From: Pseudomonadota bacterium
Lineage (GTDB): Bacteria > Pseudomonadota > Gammaproteobacteria > Burkholderiales > Rhodocyclaceae
Length of the DNA stretch: 36,257 nucleotides
NCBI GenBank assembly: GCA_021849505.1
Contig: JAJZSW010000019.1
Span: 1 to 36,257, forward strand
Direction: 5' to 3'
The translations under genes were made by a program, and so were the position numbers. The notes below the pieces were generated by a model that saw only the letters and a list, made by a program, of their open reading frames with translations, was not told the origin of the DNA and did not search any database. This document shows, in pieces, positions 1,380 through 35,190 of the stretch (its first letter is position 1; every line of letters begins with the position of its first letter).

Positions 1380-3005
1380 ATGGATACCCAACGCCTGATA
1401 CTGCTGCTGGTCTTCTTCTTCTCCTGCATGATGCTGTGGGATGCCTGGCAGCGCAAGGATCTGCCGCCGCCGGTCGCGGCCAGCCAGCAGGCGGCAGCTA
1501 CCCAGCCTGCCGATGGGACACCGGGCAGTGCTGCCGTCCCGTCAGCGCCGACTTCCGCGCCGGCATCTCCGGGCGCCGTTCCCGCCGCCGGCAAGCCGGC
1601 TTCACAAGCGGCCGTACTGAAGATCCGCACCGATCTGGTGGCTGCCGAGATTTCCGCCCACGGCGGAGACCTGGTACGGCTGGAACTCCTCAAGCACCAT
1701 GCGACCGTCAAGCCGGACGAGAATTTCGTGCTGATCGACCCGGCGCATGCCTATGCAGCCCAGTCGGGCCTGATCGGCACCGGTCTGCCGAATCACAAAT
1801 CCATCTGGACGCTGCCGGCTGCCGGCCTCGAACTCAAGGATGGCGCGGACGAGTTGCGCGTCCCGCTCGAGGCGGCGCTGGAGGGTGGCGGCAAGGTCGT
1901 CAAGACCTACGTGTTCAAGCGCGGCAACTATCTGGTCGATGTCGAGCACAAGTTCGTCGATGCGCCCGTTCCGGCCGGTACCTTCGCCTATTTCCAGCTG
2001 ACGCGCGACGACAAGCCGCCGGCCGGCGCCAACAGCATGATGATGACCTTCACCGGCGCGGCAATCTATACCGACCAGGACAAGTTCAAGAAGGTCGACT
2101 TTTCAGATTTCGGCGGCAAGAACAAGCATCCGGCCAAGTCCGACAACGGCTGGGTGGCGCTGGTCGAACACTATTTCTTCTCGGCCTGGATTCCCCCTGC
2201 TGGAGAGCGCGAGTATTTCACGCGCAAGCTCGACGGCAACCTGTTTGCCACCGGTCTGGTGCTTCCCTTCACCGGCGACGCGCTGACCGTGCCGCTTTAC
2301 TCGGGTCCGCAGGAGCAGGACAAGCTCGAGAAGATCGCCCCCGGCCTCGATCTCGTCGTCGACTACGGCTGGCTGACGATGATCGCCGCGCCGCTGTTCT
2401 GGGTGCTGGACTGGATTCACGGCTACGTCGGCAACTGGGGCTGGGCGATCATCCTGCTGACTGTGCTGATCAAGGGGGTGTTCTTCCCGCTCTCCGCCGC
2501 GAGCTACAAATCGATGGCGAAGATGCGCGTGCTGACGCCGAAGCTGATGAAGCTGAAGGAAACCTACGCCGACGACAAGCAGCGCATGAACCAGGAGATG
2601 ATGGAGCTCTACAAGCGCGAGAAGGTGAACCCGCTCGGTGGTTGCCTGCCGATCCTCGTGCAGATCCCCGTCTTCATCGCGCTCTACTGGGTGCTGCTCG
2701 GCACCGTCGAAATGCGCGGCGCGCCCTGGCTCGGCTGGATCACCGACCTGTCGGCCCAGGATCCCTATTACGTGCTGCCGCTGCTGATGGGCGTCTCGAT
2801 GTTCATCCAGACCAAGCTCAACCCGACGCCGCCCGATCCGATCCAGGCCAAGATCGTGCTCTGGATGCCGATCGTCTTCACGGTCATGTTCCTCTGGTTC
2901 CCTGCCGGCCTGGTGCTCTACTGGACCGTCAACAACGTCCTGTCGATCGCGCAGCAGTGGCAGGTCAACCGCATGATCGAGAGCGCGGGCCTGAAGGCCC
3001 ACTGA
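1380..3005 (+). CDS. yidC: Membrane protein insertase YidC
   Basis: YidC inserts and folds inner-membrane proteins, alone or with SecYEG. The 541-residue product has an N-terminal transmembrane helix (residues 5-20), a low-complexity Ala/Pro/Ser linker (about 32-75), a periplasmic beta domain (about 78-330) and the conserved C-terminal insertase core with segments such as [21 protein letters not shown] and [23 protein letters not shown], ending in several membrane helices. This is the long Gram-negative form. A copy of the dispersed repeat (1533-1554, reverse orientation, one mismatch) sits in the linker, encoding about residues 52-59, where extra residues would be tolerated. It is downstream of yidD and upstream of mnmE, the canonical origin-side order. 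Confidence 0.97.
1533..1554 (-). repeat. Dispersed 22-bp repeat, copy 1 (in yidC)
   Basis: Reverse-orientation match to the core GTCGGCGCTGGCGGGACGGC preceded by AA, with one mismatch in 22 bases. It is read as Ala-Val-Pro-Ser-Ala-Pro-Thr-Ser in the YidC linker. Confidence 0.75.
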
Positions 3006-3020
3006 CCCGCCCTCCCCCAG

Positions 3021-3040
3021 CCCCTCCCTCGCGGGAGGGG
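3021..3040. repeat. GC-rich hairpin between yidC and mnmE
   Basis: A perfect 8-bp inverted repeat, CCCCTCCC and GGGAGGGG, with a TCGC loop, lies 15 bases after the yidC stop and 27 bases before the mnmE start. There is no T-run after it, so it is more likely an mRNA-stabilising or REP-like hairpin than a strong intrinsic terminator. Confidence 0.55.
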
Positions 3041-3067
3041 AGACTTGTAGATCGCTGCGCTCGAAAA

Positions 3068-4408
3068 GTGAAACCGGCCGACACGATTGCTGCGATCGCC
3101 ACCCCGCCGGGTCGCGGCGGTGTCGGCATCGTCAGGGTCTCGGGTCGTGAGCTGCTGCCCTTGGCGCAGGCGCTGACGAACAGGCTTCCCCAGCCGCGCC
3201 GCGCCACCCGCGCCGACTTTCTGGCTGCCGACGGGCAGCCGCTCGACAGCGGCCTGATCCTTTATTTCCCCGCGCCGCATTCCTTCACCGGCGAGGATGT
3301 GCTCGAACTGCACGGCCATGGCGGCCCGGTGGTGATGCATGCCCTGCTCGCCCGCTGCGTCGAGCTCGGCGCGCGGCTGGCGGAACCGGGCGAGTTTTCG
3401 CGGCGCGCCTTCGAGAACGACAAGATCGACCTCGCCCAGGCCGAGGGCATCGCCGACCTGATCGAGGCCGCCTCGGCGCAGGCGGCGCGCGCAGCACTGC
3501 GCTCGCTGTCGGGCGAGTTCTCGACTGCCGTGCGAGCGCTCACTGACGGCCTGATCGAGCTGCGCAGCCTGATCGAGGCGACGCTCGATTTTCCCGACGA
3601 AGAAATCGACCCGCTCGCCGACACCGACATCGTGCCGCGGCTGGCGCGGCTGCGTGCCGATCTGGCCAGCCTGCGCACCCGCGCCCGCGAAGGCAGCGTG
3701 CTGCGTTCCGGCCTGACGGTCGTGCTCGCCGGCCTGCCGAATGTCGGCAAGTCCTCGCTGCTCAACCGGCTGGCCGGCGAGGAGCGCGCCATCGTCACCG
3801 AGATTGCCGGCACGACGCGCGACGCCGTGCGCGAGACGATCCAGGTCGAGGGCATCCCCTTGCACATCATCGACACCGCCGGGCTGCGCGACACCGCGGA
3901 TGTGGTCGAACAGATCGGCATCGCGCGTACCTGGCAGGAAATCGAAAAGGCCGATGTGATCCTCCAGCTCGTCGATGCGCGCGGCGGTGTCACGCCGGCC
4001 GACCAGGCGATCGCGGCGCGCCTGCCCGCGGGCATCGAGCGCGTCGTCGTCGAAAACAAGTGCGACCTCGCCCAGCGTGTTGCCGGCCGCCATGTCGAAA
4101 AGGGCGCCGCGCATCTGGTGGTTTCTGCCAAGAACGGCGCCGGCATGCAACTGCTGCACGACGAGTTGCTGCGCATCGCCGGCTGGCGCGGCCATGGCGA
4201 GGATGCCCTGCTTGCCCGCGCGCGCCACCTCGAGGCGCTGGCCGAGGCGGAGACCCGCATGGCGGCGGCGGATGGCCAGCTCCGGCAGCTCGAACTGGCC
4301 GCCGAGGAACTGCGCCTTGCCCAGCAGGCGCTGGCGCGCATCACCGGCGAATTCACCGCCGACGACCTGCTCGGCACGATCTTCGGCCGCTTCTGCATCG
4401 GCAAATGA
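3068..4408 (+). CDS. mnmE: tRNA uridine-5-carboxymethylaminomethyl(34) synthesis GTPase MnmE
   Basis: MnmE is the GTPase which, with MnmG, modifies wobble uridine 34 of several tRNAs. The 446-residue product shows the N-terminal tetrahydrofolate-binding domain ([21 protein letters not shown]), a helical domain, and the GTPase inserted in it: Walker [10 protein letters not shown] (about residues 222-230), the GTTRD switch segment, DTAGLRDT, and NKCD as the G4 motif. The C-terminus FCIGK supplies the catalytic cysteine characteristic of MnmE. Start is GTG at 3068, immediately before the conserved [18 protein letters not shown]-terminus. The partner gene mnmG is about 5.9 kb downstream, separated by the TSUP and liv genes. 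Confidence 0.97.
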
Positions 4409-4454
4409 GCCCCCCCCGAAAACCTCGCTTAGCTCGGTTCTCCCCCCAGGGGGC

Positions 4455-4489
4455 CAAGAAACACTCGGGGCGGCCCTTCGTGTTTCTTG
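4455..4489. repeat. 10-bp inverted repeat after mnmE
   Basis: CAAGAAACAC (4455-4464) and GTGTTTCTTG (4480-4489) form a perfect 10-bp stem with a 15-base loop, in the mnmE-TSUP spacer. It is directly followed by a copy of the dispersed repeat. It may be a Rho-independent-like end for mnmE, although no T-tract follows, or part of a composite extragenic repeat. Confidence 0.55.
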
Positions 4490-4494
4490 TGAAA

Positions 4495-4516
4495 AAGTCG
4501 GCGCTGGCGGGACGGC
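4495..4516 (+). repeat. Dispersed 22-bp repeat, copy 2 (before TSUP gene start)
   Basis: Exact copy of the repeat in the forward orientation. Its end is four bases before the ATG at 4521, so it occupies the place where a ribosome-binding site would be expected. Confidence 0.85.
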
Positions 4517-4520
4517 ATAG

Positions 4521-5297
4521 ATGATCGAAATTGACCCGATCTGGCTGACCCTGCTGCTGGCGGCCTGCTTCGCCGGCTTCGTCGATGCGGTGGCGGGCGG
4601 CGGCGGGCTGATCCAGGTGCCGGCGCTGTTCGCCGCCTTGCCGCGCGAGGCCCCGGCGACCCTGTTCGGCACCAACAAGATCGCCTCCATCTTCGGCACC
4701 CTCAGCGCGGCGCGCCGCTATGTCCGCGCGGTGGAAATGCCTTGGAAGCTGGTGCTGCCGGCAGCCGCTTCGGCCTTCGTGTTTTCCTTCGCGGGTGCGG
4801 CGGTGGTGGCCTGGCTGCCCAAGGATGTCGTGCGGCCGCTGGTGCTGGTGCTGCTCGTGGCCGTGGCGGTCTATACCTGGTCCAAACCGGATTTCGGCGT
4901 AAGCAAGCGCTCACCCCGAATTGCCGCCGAACATGCCTTGCTGGTCGCCCTGCTGGTCGGTGCGGTGATGGGCTTCTATGACGGCTTCTTCGGACCGGGG
5001 GCGGGCAGCTTCATGATCTTCGCCTTCGTGCGCCTGTACGGCATGGATTTCCTGCATGCCTCGGCGAGCGCGAAGATCCTCAATGCCGCGACCAACGCCG
5101 GCGCGCTGTTGCTGTTCGCGCCCTCCGGCCATGTGCTGTGGGCGCTCGGCCTGGGCATGGCGGTCTGCAACATCGCCGGGGCCCAGCTCGGCAGCCGGCT
5201 GGCGATCCGGCACGGCAGCGGATTCGTGCGTCTGGTGTTCCTGGTCATGACCACGCTGCTGATCGTCAAGATCGGCTGGGATACTTTCCGTCCCTGA
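4521..5297 (+). CDS. TSUP (TauE/SafE, YfcA-like) family membrane permease
   Basis: The TSUP family contains small inner-membrane transporters often proposed to export or import sulfonates, sulfite or other organic anions. The 258-residue product is very hydrophobic, with about seven to eight predicted helices, and has the two family half-repeats: GFVDAVAGGGGLIQVPALF near residues 19-37 and GFYDGFFGPGAGSFMIFAF near 152-170. The resemblance is closest to YfcA-like members. The substrate cannot be read from sequence. The start ATG at 4521 has no recognisable Shine-Dalgarno sequence because a dispersed repeat and a hairpin fill the upstream region. It is followed by liv genes, but a 93-base gap suggests separate transcription. 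Confidence 0.88.
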   Translation: MIEIDPIWLTLLLAACFAGFVDAVAGGGGLIQVPALFAALPREAPATLFGTNKIASIFGTLSAARRYVRAVEMPWKLVLPAAASAFVFSFAGAAVVAWLPKDVVRPLVLVLLVAVAVYTWSKPDFGVSKRSPRIAAEHALLVALLVGAVMGFYDGFFGPGAGSFMIFAFVRLYGMDFLHASASAKILNAATNAGALLLFAPSGHVLWALGLGMAVCNIAGAQLGSRLAIRHGSGFVRLVFLVMTTLLIVKIGWDTFRP

Positions 5298-5390
5298 GCA
5301 AAAACCCTGCTCGGTGCATGGACGGATGGCCGGTGCGATGATACATTCGGCAATTCCCATATACGTCACCATAATTCCCGGGAGGAGCCC

Positions 5391-6539
5391 ATGAAACTGC
5401 ACAGTAAGTCTCTGCTTGTCGCCCTGCTGGCGTGTTTCGCCGGTTCGGCATTCGCCGATATCAACGTCGGCGTGGTCGTGTCCGCCACCGGCCCGGCCGC
5501 GTCGCTCGGCATCCCCGAAAAGAACACCTTCGCGCTGATGCCGACCAGCATCGGCGGCGAAAAGATCAACTACATCATCCTCGACGATGCCTCCGACACC
5601 ACCACGGCCGTCAAGAACACGCGCAAGCTGCTGACCGAAGACAAGGTCGATGTGATCATCGGTTCGACGATCACCCCGAATTCGCTGGCGATGATCGACA
5701 TCGTCGCCGAAGCCGAAACCCCGATGATCTCGATGGCGGCCTCGGCGCGCATCGTCGATACGGCCAACCCGAAAGTCAAATGGGTGTTCAAGACGCCGCA
5801 GAACGACATCCAGATGTCCACCGCGCTGGTCGAGCACATGACCAACGCCGGCGTGAAAACGGTGGCGTTCATCGGCTTCGCCGACGCCTACGGCGAGGGC
5901 TGGTACCAGGAATTCAGCAAGATCGCCGAGGCGCGCAAGCTCGCCATCGTCGCCAACGAACGCTACAACCGCGCCGACACTTCGGTCACCGGCCAGGTCC
6001 TGAAGATCATCTCCGCCAAGCCGGATGCCGTGCTGATAGCCGGTTCGGGCACCCCGGCCGCCCTGCCGCAGAAGACGCTCAAGGAGAAGGGCTACAAGGG
6101 CGCGTACTACCAGACCCACGGCGTGGCCAACAAGGACTTCCTGCGCGTCTGCGGCAAGGATTGCGAAGGCACTTTCCTGCCTGCCGGCCCGGTGCTGGTC
6201 GCGGCGCAACTGCCCGCCGACAACCCGATCAAGAAGGTGGCCTCCGATTATGTTGCCAAGTACGAGGCGGCCCATGGCAAGGGCAACAGCTCGACCTTCG
6301 GCGCCCACGCCTGGGATGCCGGCATCCTGCTGCAGAATGCCGTGCCGGTCGCCCTCAAGAAAGCCAAGCCGGGCAGCAAGGAGTTCAAGGTCGCGCTGCG
6401 CGACGCGCTCGAAGGCCTCAAGAACGTGACGGTTTCCCATGGGATCGTCAACATGTCGCCCACCGACCATCTTGGCTTCGACCAGCGCGCGCGCGTGATG
6501 GTCAGGGTCGAGAATGGCGACTGGAAGCTGATCAAGTAG
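5391..6539 (+). CDS. Branched-chain amino acid-type ABC transporter substrate-binding protein
   Basis: This is the periplasmic receptor of a LivFGHM-type ABC importer. The 382-residue product begins with a signal peptide (MKLHSKSLLVALLACFAGSAFA, cleavage likely after AFA at residue 22; an LLAC lipobox-like sequence at 12-15 is an alternative). The mature part has the periplasmic-binding type I fold pattern: INVGVVVSATGPAASLGIPEKN at its start and VDVIIGSTITPNSLAMI further on. A strong ribosome-binding site GGGAGGAG precedes the ATG. It heads the transporter cluster livH-livMG-livF. Substrate could be branched-chain amino acids, amides or aromatic acids; receptors of this family in betaproteobacteria often bind aromatic compounds, so I give no gene symbol. 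Confidence 0.9.
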   Translation: MKLHSKSLLVALLACFAGSAFADINVGVVVSATGPAASLGIPEKNTFALMPTSIGGEKINYIILDDASDTTTAVKNTRKLLTEDKVDVIIGSTITPNSLAMIDIVAEAETPMISMAASARIVDTANPKVKWVFKTPQNDIQMSTALVEHMTNAGVKTVAFIGFADAYGEGWYQEFSKIAEARKLAIVANERYNRADTSVTGQVLKIISAKPDAVLIAGSGTPAALPQKTLKEKGYKGAYYQTHGVANKDFLRVCGKDCEGTFLPAGPVLVAAQLPADNPIKKVASDYVAKYEAAHGKGNSSTFGAHAWDAGILLQNAVPVALKKAKPGSKEFKVALRDALEGLKNVTVSHGIVNMSPTDHLGFDQRARVMVRVENGDWKLIK

Positions 6540-6560
6540 AATCGCTGCGGCCATGAAGCC

Positions 6561-6588
6561 AGGGGCGTCGGAGGTTTCCGGCGCCCTT
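6561..6588 (+). terminator. Hairpin between receptor gene and livH (attenuator-like)
   Basis: An 11-bp stem, AGGGGCGTCGG (6561-6571) with CCGGCGCCCTT (6578-6588) including two G-T pairs, has a 6-base loop and lies 21 bases after the receptor gene stop. It has no long T-tract. Such hairpins commonly let binding-protein mRNA exceed permease mRNA. Confidence 0.5.
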
Positions 6589-6618
6589 GTCGTTTGAAAC
6601 TAATCGAAAATCTCGGCG

Positions 6619-7653
6619 ATGGATCTGCAAATCGCACTGCTGCTCGGCCAGGACGGCATCGTCAACGGCGCCATCTATGCGCTGCTGGCGCTGGCGCTGG
6701 TACTCGTCTTCGCCGTGACGCGCGTGATCTTCATTCCGCAGGGCGAGTTCGTCGCCTACGGCGCGCTGACCCTGGCGAGTCTCCAGGCCGGCCAGGTGCC
6801 GGGCACGCTCTGGCTGCTGCTCGCCTGCGGCGTCGCGGTGGCGGTCATCGACGCGCCGGCCAGCCTGCGGTTCGGCAAGGGGCGTTTCGCCAAACTGCTC
6901 GGCTGGCAGGTCCTTTATCCCATTGTCGTTGCCGCGCTGGTGCTCGGCACCGCGCCGGGCGACTGGCCGATGGCCCTGCAGGTGCTGCTGGCCCTCGCGG
7001 TGGTGGTGCCGCTCGGCCCGCAGTTGTACCGGCTCGCCTATCAGCCGATCGCCGAGGCGCCGGTGCTGGTGCTGCTGATCGTCTCGGTGGCGGTACATCT
7101 GGCGCTGGTCGGCCTCGGGCTGCTGTTCTTCGGCGCCGAGGGCTCGCGCACCCCGGCCTTCTCGGAAGCCTCCTTCGACATCGGCGGGCTGACGATCACC
7201 GGTCAGAGCCTCTGGGTGATCGGCGCGAGCGCCGTGCTGATCGTCGCGCTCTACATCTTTTTCGAAAAGAGCCTTTATGGCAAGGCATTGCGGGCGACGG
7301 CAGTGAATCGTGCCGGGGCCCGATTGATGGGCATCTCGACCACGCTGGCCGGCAAGCTGACCTTCCTGCTGGCGGCGATGATCGGCACGCTGTCCGGCAT
7401 CCTCATCGCTCCGATTACCACCGTCTACTACGACACCGGCTTCCTGATCGGCCTGAAGGGTTTCGTCGGCGCGATCGTCGGCGGACTGGCCAGCTATCCG
7501 GTCGCGGCCGCCGGGGCGCTGCTGGTCGGACTGCTGGAGGCTTTCTCTTCCTTCTGGGCTTCGGCCTTCAAGGAGGTGATCGTGTTCACCCTGATCATCC
7601 CGGTGCTGGTGTGGCGTTCGCTCGCCAGCCGGCATCACGAGGAGGAAGAGTGA
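6619..7653 (+). CDS. livH: Branched-chain amino acid-type ABC transporter permease LivH
   Basis: One of the two membrane subunits of the importer. The 344-residue product starts [31 protein letters not shown], the typical LivH opening with its [15 protein letters not shown] helix. Several further helices follow, and the family cytoplasmic loop [19 protein letters not shown] near residues 225-243 that contacts the ATPase, then the [29 protein letters not shown] segment near 280. It is longer than Escherichia coli LivH (about 308 residues) because of an extra region around residues 75-120. The stop overlaps the start of the next gene by four bases (GTGA), so translation is coupled. Confidence 0.93.
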
Positions 7654-9446
7654 ATACCCGCTTCCAACTTCCTGTGGCGGTTTTCGTCGTCGCCCTTGCG
7701 CTGGTGCCGCCCTTCATGTCGGATTACCACGTCACCCTGCTCAGCTACATCGGCTTGTATGCGCTCGTGGCACTCGGCCTGGTGCTGCTGACCGGTGTTG
7801 GCGGCCTGACCTCCTTCGGCCAGGCGGCCTTCGTCGGCCTTGGCGCCTATGCGACCGCGGTGTTGACGACAACGGCCGAGCTGCCCGCCTGGCTGGAGCC
7901 CTTCGCCAATCCGTGGGGCGGGCTGCTCGTCGGCCTGTTGGTCACCGCGCTGGTGGCCTGGCTGCTCGGGCTGCTGACGCTGCGCCTGTCCGGCCACTAT
8001 CTGCCGCTCGGCACCATCGCCTGGGGCATCTCGCTTTACTTCCTGTTCGGCAACCTCGCCTTCCTCGGTGGGCATACCGGCATCGGCGGCATTCCGCCGC
8101 TTGTCGTCGCCGGCTTCGAACTGCGCGATGGCCGCCATTATTATTATCTGATCTGGACGGTGCTGCTGGCGGCGGTGTGGATCACCGCCAACCTGCTCGA
8201 TTCGCGCGCTGGCCGCGCCATCCGTGCGCTCAAGGGCGGGGCGGTGATGGCCGAGGCGATGGGCGTCGATACCGCCCGCGCCAAGATCGTCATCTTCGTC
8301 ATCGCCGCGCTGTTCGCCGCCCTGTCCGGCTGGCTTTACGCCCACCTGCAGCGCTTCGTCAATCCGACGCCCTTCGGCCTGCACATCGGCATCGAGTACC
8401 TGTTCATGGCGGTGATCGGCGGAGCGGCCCACGTCTGGGGCGCGCTAGCGGGTGCGGCGGTGATCACGGTGCTGAAGCAATGGCTGCAGGGGATCCTGCC
8501 CCAATTGTTCGGCGCTTCGGGCAATTTCGAGGTGATCGCCTTCGGTTTGCTGATGATCGTCGTGCTGCACCGCGCGCGCGAAGGCCTCTGGCCGCGGCTG
8601 GCGCGGTTGGTCCCCGCCTCAGGGTGCCGTCCCGCCAGCGCCGACTTTCAGGCCGAGCCGCTGGCGCGCCGTCCGGTGCCGGCACCGGGCACCCCGCTGC
8701 TCGAAGTGAACGATGCGGTCAAGAAATTCGGCGGACTGGTGGCCAACGACCGGATGAGCCTGGCGGTTGCCGCCGGGGAAATCCTCGCCCTGATCGGACC
8801 GAACGGCGCGGGCAAGTCGACCCTGTTCAACCTGATCACCGGCGTCGATCCCCCCACCAGCGGCGCGGTCCAGTTCCTCGGGCGGCGCATCGATGGCCAG
8901 AGTTCGCGCGCCATCGCCCGCATGGGCATGAGCCGCACCTTCCAGCATGTGCGCCTGCTGCCGGCGATGAGCGTGCTGGAGAACGTCGCGCTCGGCGCGC
9001 ACATGCGTGGCAAGCACGGCGTGCCGGCCGCGATGCTGCATCTGGAGCGCGCCGAAGAGTCCCGCCTGCTCGCCGAAGCCGCGCGCCAGTGCGAGCGCGT
9101 CGGACTGGGCGAGCACGTTCATGACGCCGCTGGTAGCCTGCCGCTCGGCAAGCAGCGCATCGTCGAGATCGCCCGTGCGCTGGCGGCCGATCCCTGCCTG
9201 CTGCTGCTCGACGAGCCGGCGGCCGGCCTGCGCTTCCTGGAGAAACAATCCCTGGCCGAACTGCTCCGGCAGTTGCGCGCGCAGGGCATGGGCATCCTGC
9301 TGGTCGAGCATGACATGGAATTCGTCATGGACCTGGCGGACCGCGTCGTGGTGATGGAATTCGGCAAGAAGATCGCCGAGGGCCTCCCGCGCGACGTGCA
9401 GAGCGACCCGGCGGTGATCGAGGCCTACCTCGGCGGAGTCGATTGA
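7650..9446 (+). CDS. livM-livG: Fused ABC permease/ATPase, LivM-LivG
   Basis: A single 598-residue protein joins the second permease subunit and the first ATPase of the importer. Residues 1 to about 320 are LivM-like: helices with [21 protein letters not shown], and the EAA-like loop [19 protein letters not shown]. Residues about 352-598 are a LivG-type ATPase: Walker [10 protein letters not shown] at 383-391, signature region [15 protein letters not shown], Walker [12 protein letters not shown], and the switch histidine in [10 protein letters not shown]. The start is GTG at 7650, overlapping the livH stop. The linker contains an exact reverse copy of the dispersed repeat (8626-8647, residues about 326-333). 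LivM-LivG fusions are known in proteobacteria; the repeat in the junction is the unusual part. livF follows one base after the stop. Confidence 0.93.
8626..8647 (-). repeat. Dispersed 22-bp repeat, copy 3 (in livM-livG linker)
   Basis: Exact reverse-orientation copy located at the boundary between the permease and ATPase domains. It is read as Arg-Pro-Ala-Ser-Ala-Asp-Phe, a different reading frame from the yidC and rsmG copies. Confidence 0.85.
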
Positions 9447-9447
9447 G

Positions 9448-10194: not shown

Positions 10195-10198
10195 GATA

Positions 10199-10214
10199 CG
10201 TTTCACGTGAAACC
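10199..10214. promoter_or_regulatory. parS: parS site 1 (ParB-binding centromere sequence)
   Basis: The palindrome GTTTCACGTGAAAC (10200-10213) matches the conserved bacterial parS consensus TGTTTCACGTGAAACA in its 14 inner bases; the outer bases differ. ParB, encoded 3.4 kb downstream, would nucleate here. Location near dnaA fits origin-proximal parS sites. Confidence 0.9.
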
Positions 10215-10239
10215 CGGCAGCGCGGGTTTCACGTGAAAC
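10200..10239. terminator. 17-bp inverted repeat made of both parS sites
   Basis: The two parS sites face each other as arms of a larger perfect inverted repeat: 17 bases (10200-10216), a 6-base loop (10217-10222), and 17 bases (10223-10239), followed by ATTTT. Transcribed, this forms a strong GC-capped hairpin just after the livF stop and could act as its terminator. Terminator function is inference. Confidence 0.5.
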
Positions 10240-10240
10240 A
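10225..10240. promoter_or_regulatory. parS: parS site 2 (ParB-binding centromere sequence)
   Basis: A second GTTTCACGTGAAAC (10226-10239), here followed by the consensus outer A at 10240. Its centre is 26 bases from that of site 1, about two and a half helical turns. Confidence 0.9.
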
Positions 10241-10242
10241 TT

Positions 10243-10271: not shown

Positions 10272-10296
10272 TCGCCCCCCTTCTTCCGAGTTCCTT

Positions 10297-10318
10297 GCCG
10301 TCTCGCCAGCGCCGACTT
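10297..10318 (-). repeat. Dispersed 22-bp repeat, copy 4 (before mnmG start)
   Basis: Reverse-orientation copy with one mismatch in 22 bases. It ends five bases before the mnmG ATG and fills the expected ribosome-binding site. Confidence 0.8.
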
Positions 10319-10323
10319 TTCCC

Positions 10324-12198: not shown

Positions 12199-12812
12199 AG
12201 CTCGCAGAGGGAATCGCCGCATTGGGCCTGGCCTTGCCGTCGGGCACCGCCGACAAGCTGGCGGCCTATCTGGCGCTGCTGGCGAAATGGAACAAGGTGT
12301 ACAACCTGACATCGATCCGGGATCCGGAAGAGATGATCACCCATCATCTGCTCGACTCGCTGGCCGTGCTGCCCATTCTGCAAAAGTCGGCGCTGGCGGG
12401 ACGGCAGTTCGCGCTCGCCGATGTCGGCAGCGGCGCCGGTCTGCCGGGTCTGGTGTTGGCCATTGCCTGTCCCGACTGGAAGTTGACTTCGGTGGAGGCG
12501 GTCGAGAAAAAAGCCGCATTCCAGCGCCAGGCGAAGATCGAGCTGGAACTCGCCAATGTGAGCATTCACTGCGGCCGTGTCGAGGCGCTGCAAGAGAAGT
12601 TCGATGCCGTGATCTCGAGGGCTTTCGCGAGCCTTGCGGGCTTCGCCGAGCATGCGGGACATCTGTCGGATTGCCTGTGGGCGATGAAAGGCGGGTATCC
12701 TGCCGACGAAATCGCTGCCCTGCCCGCCGGCTGGCGGGTGGTGGCCAGCCATGAATTGCACGTTCCCGGCCTGGTGGCCGAACGCTGCCTGCTGCAACTG
12801 GAGAGAAACTGA
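12195..12812 (+). CDS. rsmG: 16S rRNA (guanine-527-N7)-methyltransferase RsmG
   Basis: RsmG (GidB) methylates G527 of 16S rRNA using S-adenosylmethionine. The 205-residue product has the family opening ([28 protein letters not shown], about residues 31-58), SAM-binding [17 protein letters not shown], and [13 protein letters not shown] dispersed-repeat copy (12384-12405, exact) encodes Lys-Ser-Ala-Leu-Ala-Gly-Arg at residues 64-70, between the LDSLAVLP helix and the SAM motif. From memory of the family, homologues have a shorter connection here, so this looks like an in-frame insertion in a permissive loop. The downstream half, with KGG and a C-terminal LERN, appears intact, so the enzyme is probably functional. 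Confidence 0.95.
12384..12405 (+). repeat. Dispersed 22-bp repeat, copy 5 (in rsmG)
   Basis: Exact forward copy inside rsmG, contributing seven residues just before the SAM-binding motif without breaking the frame. Confidence 0.85.
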
Positions 12813-21545: not shown

Positions 21546-21551
21546 CGTGCA

Positions 21552-21573
21552 AAGTCGGCGCTGGCAGTACGGC
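21552..21573 (+). repeat. Dispersed 22-bp repeat, copy 6 (after atp terminator)
   Basis: Forward copy with two mismatches in 22 bases, beginning seven bases after the terminator T-run and about 40 bases upstream of the HTH-PAS gene. It is followed by a partial duplication of its ACGGC end. Confidence 0.7.
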
Positions 21574-21613
21574 ACGGCATAAAATACCTGCATCGAACAG
21601 TCGGACTTGCGTC

Positions 21614-22579: not shown

Positions 22580-22590
22580 CCCGGGTTTGA

Positions 22591-22612
22591 AACTCGGCGC
22601 TGGCGGCACGGC
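22591..22612 (+). repeat. Dispersed 22-bp repeat, copy 7 (between convergent genes)
   Basis: Forward copy with two mismatches in 22 bases, 11 bases after the PAS-gene stop. Its first 13 bases form one arm of a hairpin. Confidence 0.7.
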
Positions 22613-22629
22613 ACACCAGGCGCTGAGTT
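22591..22629. terminator. Hairpin between the convergent PAS gene and ubiJ
   Basis: AACTCGGCGCTGG (22591-22603) pairs with CCAGGCGCTGAGTT (22616-22629) through 13 pairs with one bulged G and one G-T pair; loop of 12 bases. It overlaps the ubiJ stop codon and may limit read-through from both sides. No T-tract, so terminator activity is uncertain. Confidence 0.45.
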
Positions 22630-24363: not shown

Positions 24364-24446
24364 GATCGTGAAGGTTCTGGTTGCAGGTCTTACGCCATAT
24401 GGGGGCCGAGTATCATAGCGCAAGGCGCTGCGCTTACCGGTTTTCC

Positions 24447-26278: not shown

Positions 26279-26288
26279 GATGGCTCCT

Positions 26289-27743: not shown

Positions 27744-27748
27744 GACGC

Positions 27749-28483: not shown

Positions 28484-28904
28484 TCTTCACACTCTTTCAA
28501 GAGCTTGCGGATGATCTCGGCGGAAAAGCCGCGGGCCTGCAGGAAACGCGCCTGGCGGGCCCAATCGCTGCGATCGGCCGGTGCTGCCGAGAATTTTTTC
28601 TGCCATACCGCGCGGGCACGGTCGAGTTCATCCGGCAGATCCTCGACATGATCGGCGATCAGGTCGGGTGCCACACCTTTTTGGCGCAACGTCTGGCGCA
28701 GGCGCGCGGCACCCAGCCGCTCCCCCTGGCTGCGCAGGTAACTCTCGGCAAAGCGCGCATCCGACTGCAAGCCCGATCTGGCCAATTCATTCAACACGGT
28801 GTCGATTTCTTCCGGCGTGCCATGCGCGGCGAGTTTCCTGGCCAGTTCTGCGCGCGTGTGCTCGCGCCGGGCCAACAGTCTCACCGCGCGCTGGCGCAGT
28901 TCAT

Positions 28905-28908
<4 letters not shown>
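28480..28908 (-). CDS. recX: RecA regulatory protein RecX
   Basis: RecX modulates RecA filament extension. The 142-residue product shows the three-helix-repeat pattern: [23 protein letters not shown], the [13 protein letters not shown] motif (about residues 49-61) and [11 protein letters not shown]. Start is GTG at 28908, overlapping the recA stop by four bases. The end overlaps lptB. Length is in the usual range. Confidence 0.93.
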
Positions 28909-29924
<1,016 letters not shown>

Positions 29925-29951
29925 TTTGCTTCCTTCCCGAGTTTGTCTGGA

Positions 29952-30446
29952 TTATGGCATGTTTCTTGCGCGTTCGATCAGGCCCGAGAGCGCGTGAATG
30001 ACCGATTGACGGCGGACTGCCTCGCGGTCGCCCTCGAAAAGTCGGCGCTCGCAGGACGGCACCTGATTCTTCAGGCACCAGCCAAAGCAGACCGTCCCGA
30101 CCGGCTTCTCTTGGGAGCCGCCCGCCGGCCCGGCAATCCCGGTAATCGCCAAAGAAATCATGGCATTGGAGTTCGTCAAGGCACCGGCGGCCATTTCCCC
30201 CGCCGTTTCGAGACTCACCGCGCCAAAAGTTTCAATGGTGATCAAACGTACACCAAGCATATCCGCTTTTGCGGCGTTTGCATAGGTCACGAAGCCGCGG
30301 TCGAACCAGGCCGAACTCCCGGCCGTGTGGGTGATTACTTCTGCCGCCCAGCCGCCGGTGCAGGATTCCGCCGTGGCGACGACCAGACCTCGTTCCAGGC
30401 AGATCCGTCCCAGCGCTGCGGAAAGCTCAACCAGTTCGCTATCCAT
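29952..30446 (-). CDS. pncC: Nicotinamide-nucleotide amidohydrolase PncC (CinA C-terminal domain)
   Basis: PncC deamidates nicotinamide mononucleotide in pyridine-nucleotide salvage. The roughly 164-residue product is the stand-alone CinA C-terminal domain with LVVATAESCTGGWAAEVIT, the motif GIAGPAGGSQEKPVGTVCF, and GDREAVRRQSV near the end. I chose ATG at 30446 (MDSELVELSAALGRI), which leaves eight bases after pgpA; an upstream ATG at 30473 would overlap pgpA. A dispersed-repeat copy (30039-30060) is read near the C-terminus as Pro-Ser-Cys-Glu-Arg-Arg-Leu-Phe, where family members of similar length have unrelated residues, so it appears as substitution and not insertion. pncC-recA is a typical proteobacterial linkage. 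Confidence 0.93.
   Translation of the reverse strand: MDSELVELSAALGRICLERGLVVATAESCTGGWAAEVITHTAGSSAWFDRGFVTYANAAKADMLGVRLITIETFGAVSLETAGEMAAGALTNSNAMISLAITGIAGPAGGSQEKPVGTVCFGWCLKNQVPSCERRLFEGDREAVRRQSVIHALSGLIERARNMP
30039..30060 (+). repeat. Dispersed 22-bp repeat, copy 8 (in pncC)
   Basis: Forward-orientation copy with two mismatches in 22 bases, antisense to pncC. It replaces the C-terminal beta-strand region of PncC just before its GDREAVRRQ segment. Confidence 0.7.
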
Positions 30447-30453
30447 CAGCGTA

Positions 30454-30957
30454 TCAGAACAGCGACTCGACAACGGCCTTGAACAGCGCCAGCGTCAGCA
30501 CGGTGTAGGCGGCCGCGATCACGTCGTCCATCATCACGCCGAAGCCGTTCTTCACCTGTTCGTCGAAATAATTGGCCGGCGGCGGCTTCATGATGTCGTA
30601 GAAGCGGAACCACAGGAAGGCGGCGAGCTGCCAGACCCAGCCGGCCGGCGTCAGCAGCAGCACGGCCCAGAAGGGGACGATCTCGTCCCAGACGATGCTG
30701 CCATGGTCGGTGACGCCGAGCGCCCGGCCGGTGATGTGGCAGGCGGTCACGCCCAGCGCGAAGGCCAGCAGCAGAAAAATGGCGAAGGCGAAGTCGTCGG
30801 GAAAAAGTCCGCGCAGCAGGGGATAGGTGACCCACGCGAACAGCGTGCCCGCGGTGCCCGGCGCGAAGGGCGAGAGGCCGCTGCCGAAGCCGCAGGCGAT
30901 CAGGTGCGCCGGATGGCGGAACAGGAAGGCGGTCGGCGGGGCAGGCGCTTTGGCCAT
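30454..30957 (-). CDS. pgpA: Phosphatidylglycerophosphatase A
   Basis: PgpA removes phosphate from phosphatidylglycerophosphate in the inner membrane. The product of about 167 residues has the family start HLIACGFGSGLSPFAPGTAGTL (about residues 17-38), several membrane helices, VTDHGSIVWDEIVPFW and the FRFYDIMKPPPANYFDEQVKNGFGVMMDDV motif containing the acidic active-site residues. I use ATG at 30957; a TTG at 30972 would add five residues and overlap nothing. It follows thiL and precedes pncC, a conserved order. Confidence 0.95.
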   Translation of the reverse strand: MAKAPAPPTAFLFRHPAHLIACGFGSGLSPFAPGTAGTLFAWVTYPLLRGLFPDDFAFAIFLLLAFALGVTACHITGRALGVTDHGSIVWDEIVPFWAVLLLTPAGWVWQLAAFLWFRFYDIMKPPPANYFDEQVKNGFGVMMDDVIAAAYTVLTLALFKAVVESLF

Positions 30958-30972
30958 GCGTTTCAGGCGCAA

Positions 30973-31908
30973 TCAGGCGAAATGGTCGTAGCCGCGCTGC
31001 GCGATCTCGACCGGCCGGCCGGTGGCATCGAGGACGTTCAGCTGACCGGCCGGACCGGCTTCGGTCGTGCCGATGCAGGTGAGCGGCAGGTCCAGCTCCG
31101 CGGCAAGCGCGACGATCTGCGCGTGATACAGCGCGGGCGCGGTGAAGACCAGTTCGTAGTCGTCGCCGCCGGAGAGATAGGCGTCTCGTTCGAAACCCGG
31201 CGCCGGCAGGACGGCAGGCTGCAGGGTCGCCGCAAGGCTGGAAGCCTCGAGCAGATGGCCGAGGTCGGCCAGCAGGCCGTCGGAGACATCGATCGCCGCC
31301 GAGGCGATGCCGCGCAGGGCGATGCCCAGCTCGACGCGCGGCTGGGGACGATGCAGGGCCGCCAGGCAGACCGACAGCGCCGGTTCGGTGAGTTCGATGC
31401 GGCCCTGCAGGTGGGCCAACCCCAGCGCGGCGCGGCCGGGCATGCCCGACACCCAGATTTCCTCGTAGAGATGCGCGCCCGAGCGCAGCAGCGCCTGTCC
31501 GGGCAGGGTCTCGCCGAAGATCGTCACGCAGAAATTGCGCGGACCCTTGGTCGTGTCGCCGCCGATCACGTCGATGCCGAACTTTTCGGCACAGTCGAAG
31601 AATCCCTGGGCGAACTTCTCGATCCAGGTTTCCGTCGCGGCCGGCAGCGCGGCGGCGAGCAGCGCCCAGCGCGGCTGCGCGCCCATCGCCGCCATGTCCG
31701 AGACATTCACGGCCAGCGTCTTCCAGCCGAGATCCTCGGGATCGGCATTGGGCAGGAAATGTGTGCCGGCGACCAGCATGTCGGTCGACACCACCAGTTC
31801 GCAGCCGGGCGAGGGCTTCACGATGGCGGCGTCGTCGCCGACGCCCAGCACGGTGTGGCGGGCGGGGCGGCGGAAATAGCGGTCGATCAGGGCAAATTCT
31901 GATGGCAT
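30973..31908 (-). CDS. thiL: Thiamine-monophosphate kinase
   Basis: ThiL phosphorylates thiamine monophosphate to the pyrophosphate coenzyme. The 311-residue product has the family pattern: EFALIDRYF, VLGVGDDAAIV, STDMLVAGTHFLPNADPEDLGWKTLAVNVSDMAAMGAQP, GGDTTKGP and ISAAIDVSDGLLADLGH-like sequence, then LSGGDDYELVF. A degenerate repeat-like sequence (31194-31215) encodes the variable segment before the LSGGDDYEL motif. The gene lies between nusB and pgpA. Confidence 0.96.
   Translation of the reverse strand: MPSEFALIDRYFRRPARHTVLGVGDDAAIVKPSPGCELVVSTDMLVAGTHFLPNADPEDLGWKTLAVNVSDMAAMGAQPRWALLAAALPAATETWIEKFAQGFFDCAEKFGIDVIGGDTTKGPRNFCVTIFGETLPGQALLRSGAHLYEEIWVSGMPGRAALGLAHLQGRIELTEPALSVCLAALHRPQPRVELGIALRGIASAAIDVSDGLLADLGHLLEASSLAATLQPAVLPAPGFERDAYLSGGDDYELVFTAPALYHAQIVALAAELDLPLTCIGTTEAGPAGQLNVLDATGRPVEIAQRGYDHFA
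31194..31215 (+). repeat. Possible degenerate copy of the dispersed repeat (in thiL)
   Basis: Matches the repeat at 18 of 22 bases, including the GGACGGC end and an AA start preceded by CGA. It lies in the variable loop of thiL. It could be a decayed copy or chance similarity in GC-rich sequence. Confidence 0.35.
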
Positions 31909-31917
31909 GCCCGGATA

Positions 31918-32382
31918 TTACTTTGCCTTGGTTTCGTCCGGGCGCAAAGAGGGCGCCAGCTTGTCGAGCACGCCATTGACGAACTTGTGGCCGTCGGTGC
32001 CGCCGTAGGATTTCGTCAGTTCGATCGCCTCGTTGATGATGACGCGCCAGGGCGTCTCGAGGTGGTCGCGCAGTTCGCAGGCCGCCATCAGCAGGATGCC
32101 GCGTTCGATCGGCGAGACTTCGGCCCAGGGGCGTGCGATGTGCGGTTCGAGCAGCGCCTGCAACGCGGGCAGGTCGTTCAGCACGCCTGCCAGCAGGCTG
32201 TCGTACAAGCCGCGATTGGCCTTGTCGAAGCCGGCGACCGACTCGGCCTGCACGATGATCGCGGCAGCATCCTGGCCGCCGATCAGGTGCTGGTAGAGGC
32301 CCTGCACGACGAACTCGCGCGCCCGGTGGCGCGGGCTGGCGGGCGCCTTGTTCGCCTTGGCTGGCTGGTGGGCGGCACTCAC
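31918..32382 (-). CDS. nusB: Transcription antitermination protein NusB
   Basis: NusB with S10 (NusE) assembles antitermination complexes on rRNA transcripts. The 154-residue product has [22 protein letters not shown] and [53 protein letters not shown], the typical C-terminal half. The first 20 residues are a low-complexity Ala/Lys/Pro tail. I chose GTG at 32382 because it overlaps the ribH stop by four bases; an earlier GTG or ATG in frame would overlap ribH much further. Confidence 0.95.
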
Positions 32383-32888
32383 TTCAGCGCTTTCCGCAGC
32401 GTCTTCTGCAGGTTGGCCATCTCGACCGCGCATTGCGCGGCTTCCATGCCCTTCTGCGTCATGCGCACCTCCGCCTGGTCGTCATTCTCGACGGTCAGCA
32501 CGGCGTTGGCGATCGGGATGCCGGTGGTCAGCTGCACGTCGGTGACACCGCGCGACGATTCGTTCGAGACGATCTCGAAGTGATAGGTCTCGCCGCGGAT
32601 CACGCAGCCAATCGCGACCAGCGCATCGTAACGGCCGCTCTGCGCCATGGTCTGCAGGGTCAGCGGAATCTCCAGCGCACCCGGCACCGTGGCGAGGGTG
32701 ACGTTGGTGACGCCGAGGCGCTTGAGTTCATGCGTGCAGCCGGACAGCAGCCCCTCGCCGACATCCTTGTTGAAGCGGGCCATGACGATGCCGATGGAGA
32801 GTCCCGCGCCGGCGAGGTCGGGTTCGATTTCGGCGAGATCGCCACGGCCGACGGGAGTCGCCGCGCTGGTGTTGGGCGTGAAGCTCAT
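32379..32888 (-). CDS. ribH: 6,7-dimethyl-8-ribityllumazine synthase
   Basis: RibH condenses the butanone phosphate with aminoribitylpyrimidinedione, the penultimate step of riboflavin synthesis. The 169-residue product has [20 protein letters not shown] (the substrate FN motif), [47 protein letters not shown] and [18 protein letters not shown]. The ATG at 32888 overlaps the ribBX stop by four bases. Residues 1-25 are a non-conserved tail. Confidence 0.97.
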
Positions 32889-33985
32889 TTGTCGAGTTCC
32901 TCGGGAGACAGGTAGCCGCAGATTTCCAGGCCGAAGCCGGCCATGCTGGGCATCTTGCGCGGGCTGGCCAGCAGGCGCATCTTGCCGACGCCCAGCGCGC
33001 GCAGGATCTGCGCGCCGATGCCATAGAGGCGCGGATCCCACTTCTGTGCCGGGCGGGCGTCGTCGGCCTGCAGGGCGTCGAGCAGGTCGCCGCCCGCTTC
33101 GTTGCGATGGAGCAGCACGATGGCACCGTTGCCCGATTTGGCGATGGCCTGCATGGCCTGATCGACGGTGAAGGTGTGGCGGCGGTTCTTGCAATCGAGG
33201 AAATCGAGTACCGACACCGGTTCATGCACGCGCACGAGCGTCTCGGTTTCCGGCCGGATCTCGCCGCGCGTCAGGGCCAGATGCACGTCGCCGCTGGTCT
33301 GGTCGCGGAAGGCGCGCAGGCGGAAGCTGCCGTGCGTGCAGATCACCTCCTTGTCGGCCACGACCTCGACCAGCTTCTCGTTCTCCGCGCGGTAGTGGAT
33401 CAGGTCGCGGATGGTGCCGATCTTCAGCTTGTGCTTCGCGGCGAATTCGAGGAGTTGCGGCAGGCGCGCCATCGAACCGTCCTCGTTCATGATCTCGCAG
33501 ATCACCGCGGCGGGCTCGCAACCGGCCATCTGCGCCAGGTCGCAGCCGGCCTCGGTGTGGCCGGCGCGCACCAGCACGCCACCCTTCTGGGCCATCAGCG
33601 GGAAGATGTGGCCGGGCTGGATGATGTCGGTCGGCTGCGCGCGCTTGGCCACGGCGGCGCGCACCGTGCGGGCCCGGTCGTGCGCCGAGATGCCGGTGGT
33701 GACGCCCTCGGCCGCTTCGATGGAAACGGTGAAGGCGGTGCCGTGCGGCGTCTTGTTGTCGCGCACCATGAGGGGCAGGTCGAGCTGGCGGCAGCGCTCC
33801 TCGGTGAGCGTCAGGCAGACGAGGCCGCGCGCATGCATGGCCATGAAGTTGATGGCTTCCGGCGTCACGTAGTCGGCGGCGAGGACGAGGTCGCCCTCGT
33901 TCTCGCGGTCTTCCTCGTCGACGAGGATGACCATCTTGCCGGCACGCATGTCGGCGACGATGTCTTGGATGGGGCTGATGCTCAC
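32885..33985 (-). CDS. ribBX: RibBX: dihydroxybutanone-phosphate synthase with degenerate GTP cyclohydrolase II domain
   Basis: Residues 1 to about 205 are a complete Rib[16 protein letters not shown] with acidic metal ligands, and [30 protein letters not shown]. Residues about 206-366 align with RibA but lack its zinc-binding cysteines (the HSECxTGDxFxSxRCDC region is replaced by [19 protein letters not shown]) and the EGRGIGL loop. The protein therefore cannot be a standard GTP cyclohydrolase II. This matches the RibBX variant described for Proteobacteria, in which another RibA supplies the cyclohydrolase. Start is GTG at 33985. No FMN riboswitch was recognised upstream. It is the first gene of the large minus-strand cluster. 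Confidence 0.93.
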
Positions 33986-34043
33986 GCTGGGTAGGCTCCG
34001 TGTACTGCGTTGGGAAAGGCGCGCATTCTACGCCGGCACCCGA

Positions 34044-34065
34044 AAGTCGGCGCTGGCGGGACGGC
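34044..34065 (+). repeat. Dispersed 22-bp repeat, copy 9 (upstream of ribBX)
   Basis: Exact forward copy in the ribBX-cytochrome spacer, about 60 bases upstream of the ribBX start on the opposite strand. Confidence 0.85.
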
Positions 34066-34082
34066 ACCATGGCGCGGGGACT

Positions 34083-34154
34083 CTAGAACTCGAAGCCGAA
34101 ATTACGCGAATCAAAGCGCTGCGTGCAGCCGCCGAGGTAGAGCGATGCACCCAT
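34083..34154 (-). pseudogene. Possible 3' remnant of an outer-membrane protein gene
   Basis: Read on the minus strand this stretch encodes MGASLYLGGCTQRFDSRNFGFEF followed by a stop. The alternating polar/aromatic pattern and terminal phenylalanine resemble the last beta-strand of an outer-membrane beta barrel, the assembly signal recognised by BamA. The frame continues upstream for some codons but no full gene is seen; the cytochrome genes occupy that region on the other strand. It may be a remnant left by an insertion or deletion. It could also be chance, since only about 23 codons support it. Confidence 0.3.
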
Positions 34155-34241
34155 GGCCGGTTTGTCAGTACTTGTATTCGGATGGATGCTGGCTATGCTG
34201 GAAAAGCGGGTATTTCGTTTTGTTTTAAAAGGAGAGATGAC

Positions 34242-34682
34242 ATGAAACTGCAGACATTGAGTTTGATTGCGTCGATTCTTGCCACGTTCTGTCTGGGGGG
34301 AAATGCCGTTGCAGCCGGAAAGGAAAAGATCGACTTGGGCAAGCGTGAGTATTTGAACAAATGTGCCGTATGCCACGGTCAAAGTGGGAAGGGTGATGGG
34401 GGTGTCATCGATGTGCTGAAAGTCGCGCCGACCGATCTCACCACTTTGAGCAAGAAAAACGGCGGCGTGTTTCCGTTCGAGCGGATGTACATGGTCATTG
34501 ATGGACGTCAGATGGTGAAGGGCCACGGCGACCGCGACATGCCGATCTGGGGCAGCGACTACAGCCGCGAAAAGATTCAGGCAGGTGAATACTATTTCGA
34601 TGTCCCCTACGATATGGAGATGTACACAAGGATGCGGATTCTTTCGCTCATCGACTATCTGAATCGGATCCAGGTCAAATAA
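34242..34682 (+). CDS. Small monohaem c-type cytochrome 1
   Basis: The 146-residue product has a signal peptide (cleavage near AVAA, residues 21-25) and is periplasmic. The haem site is CAVCH (Cys41, Cys44, His45), and the distal ligand is probably Met100 in GDRDMPIWG. The organisation is that of a class I cytochrome c with KxNGGVFPFERMYMVIDGR between them. A strong ribosome-binding site (AAAAGGAGAG) precedes ATG 34242. Base composition is less GC-rich than the surrounding genes. A paralogue follows 45 bases downstream. Partner enzymes are not visible, so the electron-transfer role is unknown. Confidence 0.88.
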   Translation: MKLQTLSLIASILATFCLGGNAVAAGKEKIDLGKREYLNKCAVCHGQSGKGDGGVIDVLKVAPTDLTTLSKKNGGVFPFERMYMVIDGRQMVKGHGDRDMPIWGSDYSREKIQAGEYYFDVPYDMEMYTRMRILSLIDYLNRIQVK

Positions 34683-34727
34683 GGGATTCAATTCAACCTA
34701 GTTCAGATACCGAATAGTAGGGAGGGT

Positions 34728-35144
34728 ATGAATATGCTCAAAATATGTGTGAGTGTTCTGATGCTGTTATTCGGAATGACGGCATTTGGTGCTGGAAAGT
34801 TGGATATCGGCAAGATCGAATACGAGCAGAGTTGTGCCAATTGCCATGGTATGGATGGAAAAGGAAAGGGGTCGATTGCACAAACTTTCCAGTTGTCGGT
34901 GCCGGATATCACGACCATGGCGAAAAGAAATGGTGGTGTATTTCCTGTTTCCCGTGTGTATGACTTGATTGACGGACGGGAAGAGGTCAAGGCGCACGGA
35001 ACACGCGAAATGCCGATATGGGGCAAGTATTATTCCTTGGGTGCTGCACCAAGGTATGACGATTATCCTTACAACCCGGAAGCTGCAGTGAGGGGGCGAA
35101 TTCTTGCCCTGATCGACTACCTGTACAGGCTGCAGCAAAAATGA
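34728..35144 (+). CDS. Small monohaem c-type cytochrome 2
   Basis: A 138-residue paralogue of the preceding cytochrome, with signal peptide (MNMLKICVSVLMLLFGMTAFGAG), haem site CANCH (Cys36, Cys39, His40) and probable distal Met95 in GTREMPIWG. Both share KxDIGKxEY/KIDLGKREY, KxNGGVFPxxRxYxxIDGR and ILxLIDYLxRxQxK, so they arose by tandem duplication or were acquired together. It uses more AT-ending codons than neighbours. Function beyond electron transfer cannot be assigned. Confidence 0.88.
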   Translation: MNMLKICVSVLMLLFGMTAFGAGKLDIGKIEYEQSCANCHGMDGKGKGSIAQTFQLSVPDITTMAKRNGGVFPVSRVYDLIDGREEVKAHGTREMPIWGKYYSLGAAPRYDDYPYNPEAAVRGRILALIDYLYRLQQK

Positions 35145-35168
35145 CCTGAAAGTACTTAACCCCCCGGC

Positions 35169-35190
35169 GCCGTCCCGCCAGCGTCGGGTT
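35169..35190 (-). repeat. Dispersed 22-bp repeat, copy 10 (before the hydrolase gene)
   Basis: Reverse copy with three mismatches, concentrated at the end farthest from the conserved GGGACGGC half, located between cytochrome 2 and the MBL-fold gene. Confidence 0.6.

Follow-up and report, generated by a model that had tools for sequence, protein, structure and literature searches.

We analysed a 36,257-nt stretch of DNA from a Pseudomonadota bacterium of the family Rhodocyclaceae (contig JAJZSW010000019.1 of assembly GCA_021849505.1, positions 1 to 36,257; "the window" is this whole stretch), in which a short sequence is repeated on both strands. The repeat is a real, evolutionarily maintained 24-base DNA word that is present in several genera of one family, and the sequence comparisons indicate that it is probably a DNA-uptake sequence.

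Sequence and copy number of the word

The word is a sharply bounded 24-mer, AAAGTCGGCGCTGGC-NNN-ACGGCA, with a bipartite core. A motif profile was built from 80 copies with up to 4 mismatches, taken from a sample of the source genome that comprised 428,257 bases, i.e. the window and 20 further stretches (15.6% of the genome). The profile has abrupt ends, and about 20 of the 24 positions are strong. Directly 5′ of the motif A or G is preferred, and the flanks beyond are not conserved. The first two of the three looser positions (NNN) have A in 25% and 24% of the copies, respectively, while ACGGC is nearly invariant. A repeat that decays uniformly would not show such uneven conservation, with the caveat that the copies were chosen by similarity.

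A first-pass annotation of the window had listed ten copies, and their positions, strands and mismatch numbers were all borne out for the 20-base core (its forward coordinates include the leading AA). It had also argued that chance cannot explain this density, which holds: 0.05 copies with up to 3 mismatches are expected by chance versus the 10 present, and 100 shuffles gave at most 1. Its extrapolation to about a thousand copies in the genome was too high. We counted about half as many, i.e. 514 matches to the 23-mer with up to 3 mismatches (273 + 241) in 2,749,208 bases on 161 contigs, or one word per 5.3 kb (~0.2 per kb). For comparison, the reversed pattern gave 0 + 0 matches at the same threshold. 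The word, on both strands, and three of its contexts in the window fold no better than shuffles, and Rfam has no match in the window.

Distribution of the word in the family

Among 61 genomes near the source genome, 18 of the 19 that belong to its genus contain 128–668 copies, so that the over-representation expected of an uptake sequence (514 versus 0 for the control) extends across the genus. The remaining one, G006, contains none. The same set covers 18 other genera of the family, of which only those of G019 and G026 are rich in the word, and the other 16 hold 0–5 copies. In a broader draw of 199 family genomes, counted with the looser pattern AAAGTCGGCGCTGGCNNNACGG and up to 2 mismatches, 22 genomes from 7 of 68 genera have at least 100 copies, and the next highest value is 36. 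This intermediate count was found in G064, a single contig, which is perhaps a lineage that is losing the word or using another variant of it. Among the matches listed (80 rows; at least 117 stretches), most record names are "Rhodocyclaceae bacterium", accompanied by Sulfuritalea, Sulfurisoma, Propionivibrio, Azonexus and a few others.

In a tree of 12 genes from 21 genomes, the word-rich genomes form one clade versus the other genera (separating branch 0.987), and G006 lies within the genus on a long branch. A tree of MnmG and RsmG from 30 genomes, with the word region excluded, unites six of the seven rich genera (support 0.76) and places the seventh, g70, near them in an unsettled position; here G006 is the sister of G002 (0.994). 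The simplest reading of these trees would be one origin and at least one complete loss of the word. At the old word sites of G006, the best matches in the two testable gaps have 8 and 10 mismatches, which is within background. A search of ten wordless genomes for an alternative word, by 12-mer counts in 17–37 kb each, yielded none that is comparable; this test is weak, as the same counts missed the word in G002.

Orthologous sites and dialects

Ten word-rich relatives were compared over the syntenic region, and many copies occupy orthologous sites there, i.e. between livF and mnmG, downstream of atpC, between mnmE and a TSUP-type gene, in rsmG, cinA and yidC, and upstream of ribBA. The gene rsmG was found in 58 of the 61 genomes, and 30 loci were compared. 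The word stands at the same codons in 15 of 17 genomes of the genus (up to 5 mismatches) and also in G019 and G026. The two exceptions within the genus are G008, in which it is interrupted by an insert, and G006, which lacks it. No word match was found at this site in the 11 loci of other genera. At the livM/livG junction the orientation differs: the word is reversed in the source genome, G017, G002, G004 and G005, and forward in G003, G012 and G001.

We compared codon identity at positions of rsmG where the amino acid is unchanged between the source genome and eight relatives of the genus, all of them word-bearing there. Within the word, 49 of 56 such comparisons retain the same codon, versus 617 of 1152 elsewhere. 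This excess points to a constraint that acts on the DNA letters. Pooling of four genes gave 99 of 121 versus 2001 of 3433, whereby mnmE and yidC were restricted to relatives already known to bear the word.

The last bases of the word differ between genomes in a consistent manner. GGCA ends predominate in the source genome (73 of 85 copies) and in G017 (82 of 97), GGTG ends in G005 (21 of 22), and GGCG ends in G026 (25 of 29), G019 (17 of 25) and G010 (16 of 23). Mixed sets occur in G012 (7 GGCA and 3 GGCG of 12) and in G003 (3 GGCA, 2 GGCG and 2 GGCT of 7). In G005, the retained copies in rsmG and at livM/livG carry the GGTG form. A further variant, the GTCGACGC form, characterizes G086 (genus g69), which has GTCGACGCTGG where others have GTCGGCGCTGG. 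Dialects, as expected of uptake sequences, are thus present, comprising GGCA, GGCG and GGTG ends and the GTCGACGC form. A concerted change of a recognized word would fit these dialects, and they would be hard to obtain if a mobile unit were copied one site at a time. The first-pass annotation had attributed the near-identity of the copies to ongoing copying or to selection on the DNA word; maintenance of the word fits better than recent copying.

Origin of the copies at individual sites

Comparison of orthologous loci with and without the word bears on whether copies arose by substitution in place or by insertion. At residue 396 of MnmE, the word is read as EKSALAGRQ or similar in G012, G001, G019 and G026, and the site is ungapped in 8 of the 10 wordless genomes shown. 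At residue 44 of the same protein, the word stretch itself is ungapped in several genomes; a length difference of 3–4 residues just upstream occurs with the word (G026) as well as without it (G017, G002, G004 and G006). The gap between mnmE and the TSUP-type gene has 35 bases with the word (G004, G017) versus 36 without it (G024). At these three sites the word is accordingly present without added length.

The rsmG of G008 and G015 (loci L255 and L253) have in-frame inserts of other sequence within the word site, which lengthen the protein loop.

Gene context, orientation and spacing

Gene context was determined with a codon-usage gene caller for copies with up to 5 mismatches. Of 88 sampled copies, 53 lie wholly in genes, 6 cross a gene edge, 28 are intergenic and 1 is at the end of a stretch. 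The coding share (53 of 88) compares with 87% predicted from area alone. The statement of the first-pass annotation that the repeat encodes no protein is correct for the word as a unit, but not for the copies inside coding sequence, which are translated there; examples in the window are those in yidC, rsmG and cinA. The readings are KVGAGGTA (21), AVPPAPTF (14), CRPASADF (10), KSALAGRQ (6) and a fifth frame (2). Judged by eye, the in-gene copies are situated at tolerant regions of the proteins, e.g. the linker of YidC. They are oriented along the gene in 27 cases and opposed to it in 26.

A bias of orientation along the direction of replication, for which a test had been suggested, was sought in G017, a single contig. 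The two arms have 29 forward and 17 reverse copies (p 0.10) and 19 and 14 copies (p 0.49), respectively, i.e. the bias is not significant and has the same sense on both arms. A polar chromosome signal such as KOPS or Chi is not supported as a description of the word, as its orientation in G017 does not follow the direction of replication.

Spacing was analysed in two 200-kb stretches of G017, which contain 46 and 33 copies with coefficients of variation (CV) of 0.59 and 0.63. Only 2 pairs are closer than 1 kb (14.2 expected), and 10,000 uniform placements never reached this evenness; this null ignores a possible spread of the tolerant places. The same stretches contain no inverted pair of words less than 120 bases apart. 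At L122:5033-5106 of another genome, two exact words stand in inverted orientation with 28 bases between them. Inverted pairs of neisserial uptake sequences double as terminators.

Two long word-free gaps were found in the sample of the source genome. One (~31 kb) contains genes that were recognized by eye, from their translations, as tuf, fusA, rpoBC and genes of ribosomal proteins. In the other (~25 kb), an integrase, TrbL, a TrwC relaxase and a type IV coupling protein mark an integrative conjugative element. This word-free element extends from L218:11644 to about L219:9960 (~18–20 kb) and precedes rpsF-rpsR-rplI-dnaB-like genes.

Competence genes

The source genome encodes ComEC, DprA and a minor pilin of the ComP_DUS family (42.3 bits; cut-off 27.3). 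The competence machinery expected for an uptake sequence is thus present, and it is equally present in wordless relatives. As markers of the word, ComEC, DprA and ComP_DUS were discarded, because they are too widespread to discriminate.

A putative DNA-uptake sequence

We propose that a DNA receptor belonging to the type IV pilus or the competence machinery would prefer DNA with AAAGTCGGCGCTGGC-NNN-ACGG(C/T)(A/G). Biased uptake together with homologous recombination would let the word accumulate at tolerant places of the chromosome and would keep it in either orientation; where DNA is newly acquired or under strong constraint, the word would remain rare. If the preference of the receptor shifted, the whole set of words would change together, and dialects could arise in this way.

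We observed the word itself, its conserved positions, its dialects, no significant polarity, no change of length at the three compared sites and one word-free integrative element. According to passages of PMC7811141, uptake sequences arise by point mutation, are scarce in acquired and in constrained DNA, and are distributed relatively evenly. The conserved positions, the dialects (also in passages of PMC3630211), the lack of significant polarity, the apparent origin in place at some sites, and the possible scarcity in acquired and constrained DNA match published traits. We infer that a receptor reads the word, that it does so at DNA uptake, and that transformation drive maintains the word. Of the three candidates that the first-pass annotation had named, i.e. 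a DNA-uptake signal, a small mobile or REP-like element and a chromosome-organising site, the first is the best supported.

Several results weigh against an uptake function. ComEC and ComP_DUS were found in 55 and 53 of the 61 genomes, respectively, wordless ones included, and G006 has ComEC, DprA and ComP_DUS in spite of the absence of the word. Conversely, no ComEC match was found in the word-rich G018 and no ComP_DUS match in the word-rich G013 and G015 (completeness 76–83%), and the DprA match of the word-rich G019 is only sub-threshold. No pilin tracks the word and no receptor candidate emerged in a motif-based extraction that recovered 8 distinct pilins from the 14 matches of the source genome. 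The suggested search for a conserved competence pilin therefore had a divided outcome: a ComP_DUS-family pilin is present, but it does not follow the word.

The spacing in the sample of the source genome is not below random (CV 0.96; 53 spacings), partly because of the two long gaps, and both gaps were selected as the longest of the sample, with their contents named afterwards. An exact copy of the word occurs in 50 stretches of viral contigs. The word is also about twice as long as known uptake words and, at 0.2 per kb, sparser. Last, differences in length speak against pure substitution: the gap between mnmE and the TSUP-type gene varies (~112 bases in the source genome, 55 in the wordless G023), and word-bearing genomes have an rsmG loop with about six additional residues. 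The comparison of loci with and without the word, which the first-pass annotation had recommended, thus revealed no added length at three sites, but a longer loop with the word at a fourth.

Alternative explanations

A cytoplasmic protein that organises the chromosome or nucleoid could use the word as its binding site, which would be needed every few kilobases; the specificity of this protein would have drifted between lineages. The even spacing in G017, the conservation of positions, the excess of intergenic copies and the dialects would also be expected of such a site, so that this candidate of the first-pass annotation is retained as a weaker competitor. We regard it as unlikely. The arms of G017 show no significant orientation bias, unlike FtsK- or Chi-like polar signals, and a concerted change of hundreds of sites would be hard to achieve without a drive. 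Furthermore, 16 of 18 other genera manage with 0–5 copies and G006 has lost the word, showing that it is dispensable, and the integrative element lacks it.

A mark of self-DNA for a restriction-modification or another defence system would agree with the word-free integrative conjugative element and with the plasmid records, in which no match to a 31-base query was found; phage records gave one match to 21 bases of this query (E 0.02). Restriction-modification-type recognition sites are short. A 24-base word is not needed for such a purpose, and for marking or cutting a density of one per 5 kb is low, which makes this explanation improbable.

Still less credit can be given to transposase-driven copying of a small mobile or REP-like element. 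Hundreds of near-identical copies and the longer rsmG loop with the word would suit it, as would the single matches to a Y1 transposase in the word-rich G019 and G026 (one was also obtained in the wordless G028). However, no Y1 transposase was found in six word-rich genomes of the genus (the source genome and five others); the proposed search for a REP-type transposase was thus negative within the genus, but gave these two single matches outside it. The copies have neither conserved flanks nor terminal repeats, are not clustered and do not fold beyond shuffles. The word brings no added length at the mnmE sites, and its dialect changes at retained orthologous sites. This candidate of the first-pass annotation is therefore disfavoured.

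An element at the level of RNA or transcription (terminator, promoter or leader) is the least probable explanation, although 28 of the 88 sampled copies are intergenic, often near a gene end, as in-gene orientations are balanced (27 versus 26), coding sequence holds 53 of the 88, and both Rfam and the folding of the word with its three contexts were negative.

Comparison with known systems and significance

The DNA uptake sequence (DUS) of the Neisseriaceae is given in passages of PMC3630211 as ATGCCGTCTGAA and its dialects. The putative uptake sequence described here resembles it, as far as these passages go, in the hundreds to thousands of copies in and between genes, in dialects with a constant core and in a lineage-wise distribution (PMC3630211). 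In addition, minor pilins of the ComP_DUS family are present in the family of the word-bearing genomes. In contrast to the DUS, the word has 24 rather than 10–12 bases and is sparser. When the GCCGT of both sequences is aligned by eye, the CTG of the DUS core (as given in the same passages of PMC3630211) falls on the variable triplet of the word, so that homology with the DUS is not supported. The word was rejected as a neisserial DUS proper, i.e. a word of 10–12 bases with a CTG core, in view of its 24-base motif, in which the DUS core has no counterpart.

For the uptake signal sequence (USS) of the Pasteurellaceae, passages of PMC7811141 give AAGTGCGGT with A/T tracts and a full motif of ~31 bases. 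The word resembles the USS of these passages in having a long full motif, and it may share the point-mutation origin, the relatively even distribution and the scarcity in acquired and constrained DNA (PMC7811141). It differs in that a short core dominates the USS, whereas about 20 of 24 positions of the word are strong, and in its sequence and its family.

REP/BIME elements are palindromic, come with Y1 (RAYT) transposases and are present in hundreds of short dispersed copies. The word also has hundreds of short dispersed copies, but it is not palindromic and does not fold, it is often coding, and no Y1 transposase was found in the genomes of the genus tested. A REP/RAYT element is not supported, in view of the fold, which is no better than shuffles, and of the lack of Y1 matches in the source and five further genomes of the genus (one match each in G019 and G026). 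Another dispersed betaproteobacterial repeat, BRE, is longer (~90 bp) and less numerous, with at most 29 copies per genome according to a passage of PMC3110155.

Passages of two papers (PMC5031613, 2016; PMC7811141, 2020) describe sequence-specific DNA uptake in two families, the Pasteurellaceae and the Neisseriaceae. Searches of the open-access literature (preprints and most subscription papers lie outside this scope) revealed neither the word nor its peptides in any paper, and no paper that combines "DNA uptake sequence" with "Rhodocyclaceae". Judged by titles and the beginnings of abstracts, the wider open-access literature contained only the known uptake families and other matters. We lean towards the view that word-guided DNA exchange originated a third time, independently, in the Rhodocyclaceae, with a bipartite 24-base word (known words have 9–12 bases), several dialects in a single family, at least one complete secondary loss (G006) and a receptor with an unusually long footprint.

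If this is true, sequence-specific uptake would not be confined to the host-associated groups that have served for its study; the word-bearing bacteria found here are mostly known from metagenome assemblies. It would also provide an independent replicate for the question whether molecular drive alone accumulates such words. The receptor and the drive can be tested directly, given the dialects, the length of the word and a wordless genome (G006) among word-rich sisters. In addition, the word may mark DNA imported into word-poor relatives. One genome with 10 words in total has five exact ones within 41 kb. An 18-kb part of this region (L500; G123:C1:1486000-1504000) holds three words with two different ends beside metal-efflux- and transposase-like genes (named by eye), which suggests DNA imported from word-rich donors.

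Copies in the window and neighbouring features

The copies in the window are compiled in Table 1. In addition to the relatives listed there, G003 has a word just upstream of the TSUP-type gene, and G005 has a weaker copy (5 mismatches) between livF and mnmG at other distances.

Table 1. Copies of the 24-base word in the window and their occurrence in related genomes
Position	Strand	Location	Occurrence or remark
1532..1555	-	yidC, Ala/Pro/Ser-rich stretch near the N-terminus	also in G004, G012, G001
3197..3220	-	mnmE, residue 44; degenerate copy (5 mismatches to the 24-mer)	same residue in G012, G001, G026
4494..4517	+	between mnmE and TSUP-type gene; exact copy	in the gap also in G017, G002, G004, G005
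8625..8648	-	livM/livG junction of one open frame; exact copy	same place in seven relatives, either orientation
10296..10319	-	between livF and mnmG	also in G017, G002, G012, G001, G004, G003
12383..12406	+	rsmG, read QKSALAGRQ; exact copy	site kept in 15/17 genus genomes with rsmG (≤5 mismatches)
21551..21574	+	between atpC and PAS/HTH gene	downstream of atpC also in G017, G002, G004, G003
22590..22613	+	between convergent PAS/HTH gene and ubiJ-like gene	window match
30038..30061	+	cinA-like gene	same residue in G017 (6 mismatches), G002 (4), G004 (3), G003 (2)
31193..31216	+	thiL, residue 231; degenerate copy (4 mismatches)	also in G003, 4 mismatches
34043..34066	+	upstream of ribBA; exact copy	also in G017, G004
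35168..35191	-	downstream of cytochrome c gene	window match

Two further features of the window were observed. The genes livM and livG form one open reading frame (7650-9446), apparently a fused permease-ATPase, which is contiguous in several relatives and has the word at the junction. Between livF and mnmG, near parAB, two GTTTCACGTGAAAC palindromes surround a short spacer at 10200-10239 (listed as a stem-loop); in their motif, they resemble a pair of ParB parS sites.

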